Origin: Euborellia annulipes
Taxonomy: Eukaryota; Arthropoda; Insecta; Dermaptera; Anisolabididae
NCBI GenBank assembly: GCA_023213315.1
Contig: JAKCPI010028544.1
Coordinates: 62,001-126,000 of the forward strand
Length of the DNA stretch: 64,000 nt
Direction of reading: 5' to 3'
The notes under the pieces were generated by a model that searched no databases, was not told the DNA's origin, and was given only the letters and a program-made list of their open reading frames with translations. Below are positions 3,201 through 58,122 of this stretch, piece after piece (the first letter of the stretch is position 1; each line of letters begins with the position of its first letter). The translations under genes were made by a program, and so were the position numbers.

Positions 3201-6200
3201 TGGAATAAGTAAGCTTAAATTAAATATTTTTAGGAAAAATGATTCTTTATAAAAGAAGGGTTCATTTTTTTATTTATTATTTTATTCTCTTCCTCCCGTT
3301 TGCACCAAGACATCTTAGATCTTAAGCTCGCTTTACATCTTTCAATTGAATTTGAAAAACGAAATCCGGTGTTAAGATCTATTTGTGCCTCCATCGCAAA
3401 GGGGTTTTTTAAAGGGTAGGCCTTAATAAAAAATATCTAAAAATGAAGGAAATGAAAAATTAAAATTTTTCAAACCGTTCGATTTGGCGTAGATTGGATA
3501 ATAACAATAAGATATATTTATTTCACAAAAATATATATTCCATATATAAATAGTTGAATAAATAAAATGCCACATTTCGCTTTTTAGGTTATAGAAGGCT
3601 CAAGGAGAGCTTAAGATCTATGTTTTGATGCAAATTGGCAGAAATGCTCTAAGATATTTCTCAAGCTTCATAAAATGAGATAAAAAAATTTAAAAAATTT
3701 ATCAGACTATTTCATTTGAACTTTTAACTTTACAGATATTTTTATTGTTGTAATTTAGCTGGTTCATTTTTACAAAGCACATGAAAAGAATCTTTGTGCT
3801 TCAACCTAAAACGTTCAGACAGCTCTGAATTTATACAATACATTACATCTACATCGTCTATCTTTACATTGTATTATTCTAATCTTTGTTTTTATATTTC
3901 AGTGTGATATTGACGAAATTCTTCGAAGAGCTGAAACTCGTGATGAGGCTCCTACAACAGTAGGCGATGAACTTCTTTCTGCTTTCAAAGTCGCCAGTTT
4001 TGCCTTTGATGAAGAAAGAGAAACTCCTGCTGCGGAGAATGAAAACGATGATGATACCAAAGATTGGGTAAATATTAAAATTGTTTATTCTCCTTTAGAA
4101 AAAAAATCAACCTCTAGCTATAATTTATATATCTATAAATAATTAAAATATCTCTTTTTTTAAAGGATGAAATTATTCCCGAAAATTTTCGTATGAAAGT
4201 TGAAGAGGAAGAACGGCAAAAAGAAATGGATGATCTTTATCTTCCTCCTCGTAGTCGAAAAACACTTCAACAGATAAATCAATCCGATACTGATGGTAAG
4301 ACACTTAATTTTTTTCTTAAGTAATTTGTATTAATAATTCCCTAAATAGTTTAATACCAACCGCGTCTTCCCTTCCCAAATCGCTCCCTTGGAGCTTCCC
4401 CTGTATTTTTATTCTTTAAAAAAGAATTCTGAATTTGAATTAATCATTTTAACCAGGAACGCTTAACTCATCGACATGAATATCCTCCGCATACATTTCC
4501 TTTGGTCTAAAGTCGTGACTTGATCAATGAATAACTCCCAAAGTAATAGAAATTTTGCAAGAAAAGTCATTTTCTTGCTCTCTAGTCCCCCTTTGAACGT
4601 ATTCTAAAGTTTCTACTGGTTCTGGAAATACTTAGGGGAAAGACGGAAATTAGTGAATTATATATATAAGATTTAAACTTTCGACCGTTGGTTCTCGTTG
4701 AAACATTTTGTAAATTAAAATTAAATATACAAATTAAACACTAGGTTATTTGTTTCATAGGTTTTATTAATTAAAAAATTAACACTTGATACGTATTTCG
4801 ACAATTCCTTGTCATCATCAAAAGTGAGAATTCTTAATTATAAAAATGAATAACAAACTGGCTCATATAGTTTGTATCTTCCACATTATAGATATTAGCA
4901 AATTAAATTAATTTTTCTTAAAAATAATATAATACTAAGGCTGAACACACACCAATTGAGCAAAAACGTTTTCGAACAAAATGTTTTTGACTAATCGTGC
5001 CTAAAAGTGTTTTTTCAATGCTTTTCTATGGGTCAACGCAGCACACCTAGGAGGCAAAACACAATTGGACATGATTCGACATCATTGAACAAAATGTTTT
5101 GCCATTAAGCGTTTTGCTCAATCGGTGTGAGTTGGCATTGAGCAAAACGTTTTACTCTTGGACAAAACGTTTTGTCCGAAAACGTTCGAAAACGTTTTTG
5201 ATTAATCAGTGTGCACTAGCATAGTGCAAAAGGTTTTGTCATTGAGCGTTTTGCTCAATCGGTGTGCGTTGGCATTGAGAAAAACTTTTTGCTCTTTGAC
5301 AAAACGTTTTGTCCGAAAACGTTTTTGATCAATCAGTGTGCATTAGCATAGAGCAAAAGGTTTTGTCATTGAGCGTTCTGTTCAAAGGGTCTGCGTTGGC
5401 ATTGAGCAAAACGTTTTGTCCGAAAACGTTTTTGCTCCATTAGTGTGCGTTCAGCCTAATACTATATAATAATAATAATATATATATAATAATAATAATA
5501 ATAATATATATGGGCATTCCACGCCAACTCGACCACTTCTGAACCCGACCATTTTTGATTTGGCTGAAACTTTGTCATCTTTTGCCCTATTGAAAACGTG
5601 TCTGAGAATTTTTTCAGATTTTACGACCCGCCAAAAAAAGTTATAGCATTTTCAAAAAACATCGATTTTTTTTTAAATAACCGTAAAACTGTCAAAAATT
5701 AACTTATCGGAACGATTTTTTTTTGAAATTTTTGTCTTTAAATGTACTTTTCAGAAAAAAATATGACAAAATTTTACAGATTCATCTTGAACGTTTTTTG
5801 ACATTTTCGTAAAAAAAAAAATTTCGGGATGAATGACACTTTTTTTTAATTTTTTTTTTTATAAAAAACTTTGATTTTTCTACAAATGCTCGAAAATTTC
5901 AGAGTGGGATTATTTGCTTCTATTTTTTTTATTTTTGAAAAAAAAATTTTTTTCTCCGCTTATTTATCATGATGGTGCTCTTAAATTTTCCAGATTGACT
6001 GAGATTCTAGAAAATTGAAGAAAAATAATAATAATAATATTAGAGGTGATGAAAATCGAGAAAATTCCATTTATCCTGAAAAAATTAGAAATTAGTTGTG
6101 TATTCAACTACTGAAGAATTTGAAGCGTCAAGTAAAAGCTTAGAAACCTGGGCGTAACTAGGGGGGGGGGCCGGCCCTCTCAGAGAGCCCTTGCCCCAAG

Positions 6201-58122: not shown

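Follow-up and report, generated by a model that had tools for sequence, protein, structure and literature searches.

Head-to-head hammerhead elements in the Euborellia annulipes genome as probable twin-repeat insertions of Penelope-like elements

Hammerheads and their elements in a 64-kb window

We analyzed a 64-kb stretch of the Euborellia annulipes genome (assembly GCA_023213315.1, contig JAKCPI010028544.1, positions 62,001 to 126,000; hereafter the window, in whose own numbering positions are given), which carries hammerhead ribozyme motifs, many of them within short inverted-repeat elements. The window contains 46 copies of the core CTGANGA, where 17.6 would be expected. Using a descriptor that demands the core, a stem II of at least 3 bp, GAAA, stem III, UH and a stem I of at least 3 bp, we found nine intact hammerheads, with C3 at 9620-, 9839-, 9927+, 21386-, 21564+, 28684-, 37351-, 37740+ and 42475+, compared with none in 30 dinucleotide shuffles and zero or one match apiece in 12 scrambled-core controls. 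All nine have the conserved type I core (CUGANGA...GAAA...UH) and exactly one extra nucleotide, a U, between A9 and stem II. Stem III lacks a loop throughout: it is 2 bp long (AUAU, ACGU or AUGU) in eight copies and 3 bp (AUAUAU) in 9620-. An earlier, sequence-only reading had listed 12 hammerhead loci with very short stem III, placing minus-strand copies by the low end of the motif. Nine of these are the loci that are intact by our descriptor; the other three (4821-, 51519- and 56570-) are decayed. It was silent on the extra U, on the missing loop and on the arrangement of the copies, which form five close pairs when decayed ones (51519-/51575+ and 56570-/56587+) are counted, all divergent and inside inverted repeats.

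Two elements display this arrangement most completely (intervals of intact hammerheads include 10-nt flanks throughout). Element 21.4 is flanked on the left by the target-site duplication TATAGAGAGAAAGT at 21244–21257, repeated perfectly over 14 bp at 21661–21674, followed by a 30-nt tail containing CCCAGCC at 21258–21287 (minus strand), present at the left end only. Its left arm (21288–21456, minus strand), which resembles the pseudo-long terminal repeat (pLTR) of Penelope-like elements (PLEs), is 99% complementary to the right arm (21494–21662, plus strand), whose last bases are part of the duplication. The left arm holds the hammerhead with C3 at 21386 (21342–21396, minus strand; loop-less stem III AUAU) and the right arm the one with C3 at 21564 (21554–21608, plus strand). 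Element 37.5 has its tail on the other side: the duplication CAATTTTTTATTAA at 37245–37258 recurs perfectly over 14 bp at 37872–37885, and a 33-nt tail containing CCCAGCAT lies at the right end only (37839–37871, plus strand). Here the 286-nt left arm (37253–37538, minus strand), whose first bases belong to the duplication, is 100% complementary to the right arm (37553–37838, plus strand), and the two hammerheads, with C3 at 37351 (37307–37361, minus strand) and 37740 (37730–37784, plus strand), are identical in sequence. The arms are separated by 14 nt in 37.5 and by 37 nt in 21.4. The perfect duplications and near-identical arms support recent movement of these two elements.

Element 42.5 (42358–42576, plus strand) consists of short inverted ends (42358–42393 and 42540–42576) around a single hammerhead with C3 at 42475 (42465–42520, plus strand), with a tail-like variant CGGCC on the left and a duplication made ambiguous by poly-T. 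Element 9.6 (9553–9687, minus strand) likewise has inverted ends around one hammerhead, with C3 at 9620 (9580–9630, minus strand), and element 9.85 (9745–10031) has diverged head-to-head arms with hammerheads at C3 9839 (9793–9849, minus strand) and C3 9927 (9917–9973, plus strand; stem III AUGU). Decayed hammerheads occupy the head-to-head arms of element 51.5 (51419–51670; 51519- and 51575+), with CAGCTAT at the left end only, and of element 56.5 (56481–56681; 56570- and 56587+), with CAGCC at the right end only. For the hammerhead with C3 at 28684 (28639–28694, minus strand; stem III ACGU, H17 = A), we found no inverted partner. The decayed copy at 4767–4833 (minus strand) carries U at C3 (position 4821) and an 8-nt palindromic stem III, AUACGUAU; a genomic relative at L274:623 keeps an intact core. 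Across the seven window elements, CAGC stands at one end in four, a variant in one and neither in two, and 14-bp duplications flank two. From the predicted cut to the arm end the distances are 64/64 nt in 21.4 and 37.5, 66 in 42.5, 64/63 in 56.5, 58/68 in 9.85, 68 in 51.5 and 38 in 9.6. An AUG lies 26 nt before the cut in four of the nine intact copies, which belong to two elements.

An Rfam scan of the window returned no hammerhead family, even at E<=10. Rfam hammerhead models expect a looped stem III, which is the likely reason that they miss these copies; nine intact hammerheads in one 64-kb window can thus escape a standard Rfam scan. A covariance model restricted to stems I and II and trained on four families/loci clearly recovered the untrained copies 9927+ (E 7e-8) and 9839- (E 1e-5). 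It scored 56570- (E 0.04) and 9620- (E 0.05) weakly, with the unexplained matches 8832+ (0.10) and 32660- (0.13) just below; in the same search of the window, 4821- and 51575+ were at noise level and 51519- was absent. On six window copies, 95.2% of the cells in the named stems were paired, and at most 55% once partners were slid. The covariation score of these copies was 0.581 against 0.244 when shuffled (reached in 0 of 500 shuffles), whereas two of five covariation measures failed to clear the shuffles (double-change pairs, 37/500; further pair types, 29/500). By sequence and covariation, then, the window motifs are hammerheads, for which self-cleavage is a prediction.

Several elements lie near or between host exons, which we located in window positions 1–9500, 20768–21112 and 26736–27056 and which encode a CHD1-like helicase, an IR75a-like receptor (minus strand; this exon scores at its family's cut-off) and FAM91. 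The window also contains other long inverted repeats that lack an intact hammerhead and are 89–99% complementary (5633–6866, 38078–38852, 40782–41109 and 53293–54202), GC-rich arrays of the GAGGGCCC type (34332–34826 and 49706–50868) with a repeat-derived open frame (50175–50894), and a tRNA gene with a long variable arm (60005–60088).

Abundance, arm architecture and one-sided tails across the genome

Genome-wide searches covered the window's own assembly (903,471,066 bp in 25,949 contigs). The exact pattern CTGANGATGGN{8,14}CCGAAAYRTH, which fixes the core and two stem II pairs and restricts stem III, matched 10,945 + 10,791 = 21,736 times, compared with one match for a backwards control; the same pattern with an extra nucleotide other than T matched 5,273 + 5,324 = 10,597 times, with none in the control. 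Together these make 32,333 matches against one. Because eight of the nine intact window copies do not match either pattern, the counts are lower bounds. Both patterns include the nucleotide after A9, which is U in about two thirds of the copies counted and, where it is not T, is A in nearly all of 100 matches listed.

Covariation across genomic copies, named beforehand as a test that could overturn the hammerhead assignment, was evident in 49 cluster representatives drawn from 77 distinct copies in 70 loci, in agreement with the window copies and with the claim of the sequence-only reading that stems I and II covary. Pairing at stem I bp1–3 was 0.88/0.76/0.84 against 0.50/0.53/0.69 with partners swapped, and at stem II bp3–6 it was 0.84/0.78/0.75/0.60 against 0.45/0.50/0.40/0.41. 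Stem I bp4–6 were weaker (0.49/0.49/0.53 against 0.36/0.40/0.41; bp5 not significant), and stem III paired at 0.98 against 0.91, its letters being already restricted by the search pattern. A smaller set of 29 genomic contexts also showed covariation.

The head-to-head arrangement seen in the window recurs genome-wide. Among the 70 loci (30 of them the first listed pattern matches and 40 regions chosen from other listed matches, with some matches left out; a few show one element twice, once from each ribozyme), 52 have an inverted upstream partner within 900 bp, and none has an inverted downstream partner or a direct one on either side. Control positions (n=103) gave six inverted upstream, four inverted downstream and two direct partners on each side. 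Neighbors within 1 kb among the matches listed (two sets of 100) were divergent in 36 cases, direct in one and otherwise arranged in none. Arms end at a preferred distance past the cut (median 65 nt; 36/52 at +58 to +80, the others from +3 to +160), and in 48 elements their identity has a median of 0.95 (0.70–0.99). The spacers between arms range from 1 to 744 nt.

Beyond the arms, the elements carry a tail on one side. In 35 elements (exact duplicates removed, score at least 40, arm end at +45 to +100), CAGC[CT] lies within 30 nt of the arm end at exactly one end in 28 (11 right, 17 left), at both ends in none and at neither in seven, against a background of 62/2,168. As a shared tail would merge into the arm in this measurement, we also searched by position. 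Among 51 elements, C[AG]GC[CT]A lay at +55 to +115 of the right arm in 13, of the left arm in 22 and of both in none (background 95/2,104). Chance would have given 5.9 two-tailed elements (P 1e-4).

Allowing for the tail, duplications of 8 bp or more flank 25 of the 35 elements, in every case in the one-tailed register, compared with 10% (maximum 20%) for swapped flanks; at a score of at least 10, the proportions were 60% and 1%. The tail is 17–38 nt long in the better cases (median 28; 22 elements), and where both motif and duplication are seen they point to the same side in 23/23, as counted by eye. A duplication search that assumed symmetric ends gave no excess (at least 6 bp in 0/48, against a control mean of 1.6), which the one-sided tail explains.

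Penelope-like elements as the probable source

The same genome contains PLE-type frames. Reverse transcriptase (RT) matched in all 147 scored candidates of 1,503, with frames of up to 863 aa; close RT pairs, counted by eye, were divergent in 10 cases, direct in two and convergent in none. GIY-YIG (PF01541) gave 118 matches among the 150 scored of 710 candidates, and at least two of these look bacterial. Two contigs, at L290 (G000:C21118) and L296 (G000:C14348), carry UvrC-like and transposase-like frames that are bacterial by look and represent contaminant or endosymbiont contigs.

Hammerheads occur together with such frames. At L297 and L301, one open frame combines a GIY-YIG domain over the Pfam cut-off with an RT match just under its own. 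About 420 nt downstream of this frame lies a loop-less hammerhead, with CAGCA some 80 nt beyond the cut. L298–L300 have the same 3' region, and L297–L300 share a CAGCAT tail beyond which their flanks differ. L302 has an 825-aa frame with RT over the Pfam cut-off. Upstream of this frame, at least 579 nt form a perfect palindrome in which two head-to-head elements meet at their 5' ends, the second carrying an identical RT on the opposite strand. At the center of this palindrome, at about position 674 on the minus strand, sits a hammerhead whose stem III is an ordinary hairpin. In ten stretches chosen upstream of RT frames of 824–863 aa and searched with a lenient descriptor, seven had a hammerhead in sense orientation and none in antisense. 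Two of the seven are loop-less (L310, ACGU; L312, AUAU), stem III at L306 is the 5-nt ACUGU, and the remaining four carry a stem III hairpin. The hammerhead at L312 is flanked like the window copies. At L310, CAGCYA lies 82 nt and the first Met 121 nt past the cut. Judged by these sequences, the short elements look like the 5' region of such PLEs, ending at the junction of the pLTR with the open reading frame (ORF).

In most copies examined, two pLTR-like regions stand head to head and leave no space for an ORF. These elements are very probably twin-pLTR insertions made by PLEs, in our reading through priming on both target strands. For the order of steps, the priming of both strands from two RNA sites and cleavage itself, we infer the following. 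A PLE RT/GIY-YIG protein would cut the two target strands some nucleotides apart, and each 3' end would prime copying of PLE RNA from an internal start just downstream of the hammerhead. On one strand copying would begin about 65 nt beyond the cut, at the near site; on the other it would begin about 28 nt further still, at the far site, adding the CAGCY tail. Both cDNAs would run through the hammerhead and then be joined head to head. The product would be an inverted-repeat element whose ribozymes face outward, with a tail at one end and the target duplicated. Copying from the first pLTR would explain copies without an ORF. The ribozyme presumably cleaves pLTR-containing RNA, and since stem III is a loop-less 2-bp helix, usually a palindrome (ACGU, AUAU), cleavage should need a dimer, as the sequence-only reading supposed, or PLE protein. 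More tentatively, with the balance tipped slightly against it, exactly one tail per element could reflect an obligatory pair of RT starts in a PLE dimer, one near and one far, each on its own target strand.

The most serious alternative to two-strand priming is that the head-to-head form arises on a single cDNA that snaps back to prime itself or switches template. Bdelloid Penelope elements were proposed to self-prime on the evidence of palindromes at their inverted junction (PMC3846280), and the fully identical arms of 37.5 and the 579-nt perfect palindrome at L302 speak for it. If one strand were copied back from the other, the two ends should match, so a tail at one outer end alone needs a further step, and spacers of 1 to 744 nt fit two separate cDNAs of unequal length. 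We consider copy-back in its simple form unlikely; the one-tail rule favors two-strand priming over it, short of proof.

Much less probable still is that these are metazoan retrozymes, small non-autonomous tandem elements whose hammerheads self-cleave to give the circular RNAs through which they spread. In favor of this, retrozymes have type I hammerheads with a weak stem III, are non-coding, a few hundred base pairs long and low in GC (PMC7229834), and PLEs have been proposed as their helpers (PMC7761336). Animal retrozymes, however, are described as direct tandem repeats of 150–450 bp, whereas within 900 bp none of our 70 loci had a direct neighbor and 52 had an inverted one, and the PLE-like combination of a one-sided tail and a duplication speaks against them. 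The sequence-only reading had named PLEs and retrozymes together as the likely class; the first half of that proposal is well supported, by hammerheads beside RT/GIY-YIG frames, inverted arms, one-sided tails and duplications, and the second is not. An origin as DNA transposons of the miniature inverted-repeat transposable element (MITE) type, with a hammerhead in the terminal inverted repeats by accident, would account for short, non-coding inverted repeats at very high copy number. It is slightly more remote than the retrozyme reading, and we dropped it because the tail is one-sided: the motif marks one end in 35/51 elements and both in none, symmetric-end duplications are not in excess, the cut and the arm end keep a preferred spacing, and a hammerhead with a CAGC tail also terminates RT/GIY-YIG elements. 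Least probable of all, and barely worth entertaining, are chance or decayed look-alikes with no ribozyme history. The motif is short and Rfam is silent, yet the absence of matches in 30 shuffles, the excess of 32,333 genomic matches over one and the covariation in 49 representatives leave little room for them.

Several observations weigh against twin-pLTR insertion by PLEs and temper our confidence in it. The architecture is incomplete in many copies: 18/70 loci have no inverted partner by the 900-bp test, a pattern-matching hammerhead stands in both arms of only 17/48 elements, the tail motif is at neither end in 16/51, and 10/35 lack a clear duplication. In the window, we found neither tail nor duplication for 9.6 and 9.85, and for 51.5 and 56.5 a tail motif with no duplication. 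Inner edges of the arms are not piled up at the cleavage site (6/31 within 9 nt), so there is no sign of ribozyme-cleaved RNA as the template, an idea that we rejected on this ground. When folded, a transcript of the entire 21.4 element buries the ribozyme in a near-perfect hairpin. On the PLE side, the RT scores at L297 (29.0 bits) and L301 (23.3 bits) are below the Pfam cut-off of 29.6, L294 is GIY-YIG only, a Pfam scan of L302 gave RT only (its GIY-YIG comes from the separate genome-wide GIY-YIG search), and no hammerhead was found in the stretches examined of L291–L295. The candidate helper PLEs are tied to the window families by class, not by sequence, and the scan of the window for PLE frames covered only 10 chosen frames. 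At L310 and L312, the ribozyme AUG and the ORF are in different frames (worked out by hand); as a third of the counted copies are also non-U, we dropped the start codon, an idea raised by PMC11167929, as a general explanation of the extra U. For the Anolis PLE known as PAc, the in vitro start site was the same on the top and bottom strands (PMC11167929), and this lack of a strand difference does not predict a one-tail rule.

Relation to known hammerhead and Penelope systems

Hammerheads in PLEs, inverted pLTRs, tails and duplications have each been described before; what appears to be new is the twin form without an ORF, how abundant it is, and the one-tail rule. Our literature search found no description of short, head-to-head, one-tailed hammerhead elements, which is weak evidence of absence, as subscription papers were mostly outside its reach. 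Scans of GTDB and IMG/VR contigs gave loop-less matches that, among those listed, had a stem I of only 3 bp, as expected by chance. The well-paired matches were nearly all in IMG/VR contigs and had an ordinary stem III, many with the extra U. Four viral contigs (IMG/VR L130, L139, L190 and L216) each carry three to four hammerheads with an ordinary stem III, some of these with and some without the extra nucleotide after A9.

Like metazoan and plant retrozymes (PMC7229834, PMC4918200), the elements reported here are non-autonomous and carry hammerheads. Retrozymes, by contrast, are built from direct tandem repeats or long terminal repeats (LTRs) and produce circular RNAs, and such direct repeats were not found within the 900 bp around our 70 loci. 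A close structural precedent is the bdelloid Penelope of Arkhipova et al. (2013), which shares with our elements inverted pLTRs arranged head to head, a tail (31 bp, optional and on one of the pLTRs) and duplications (8–10 bp; PMC3846280). The bdelloid copies are few and mostly bound an ORF or captured sequence, whereas those in E. annulipes are short and very numerous; the word "hammerhead" is absent from the bdelloid paper.

In vitro study of PLE priming began no earlier than 2024, with the first active PLE (PMC11167929). In that system, the Anolis element PAc (Penelope/Poseidon; Frangieh et al.), reverse transcription begins inside the RNA, close to the ORF start, at two adjacent sites with the tail between them. 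Both strands of the target undergo cutting and extension, and the hammerhead requires the protein (PMC11167929). PAc shares with our elements a hammerhead at the pLTR–ORF junction that cuts 26 nt after an AUG, as in the four window copies described above. The AUG of PAc is its start codon, while in both of the E. annulipes elements tested the AUG does not share the frame of the ORF; PAc loci are tandem, while close RT pairs here are mostly divergent. Thousands of natural insertion products in one genome offer a test of PLE priming on DNA, and the one-tail rule predicts in quantitative terms how the PLE enzyme behaves.

Minimal type I hammerheads, in which stem III is lost or nearly so, occur in the pLTRs of PLEs and are dispersed by the thousands in animals, where they are reported to cleave as dimers (PMC7761336, PMC6155905). 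Their role has been called a mystery, with most motifs scattered in non-coding regions (PMC7761336). The hammerheads of E. annulipes match them in being type I, in their minimal stem III, in their dispersal by the thousands and in their presence in PLE pLTRs. They differ, in a comparison that relies on secondary accounts, in that many form the arms of head-to-head insertions with a tail and a duplication and in that the counted copies have one extra nucleotide after A9. In this genome, many minimal hammerheads mark a readable insertion of two pLTRs head to head, one tail and one duplicated target. On the more tentative reading with obligatory paired starts, twin-pLTR insertions of this kind would also explain the long-noted, dispersed and seemingly homeless minimal hammerheads of animal genomes.

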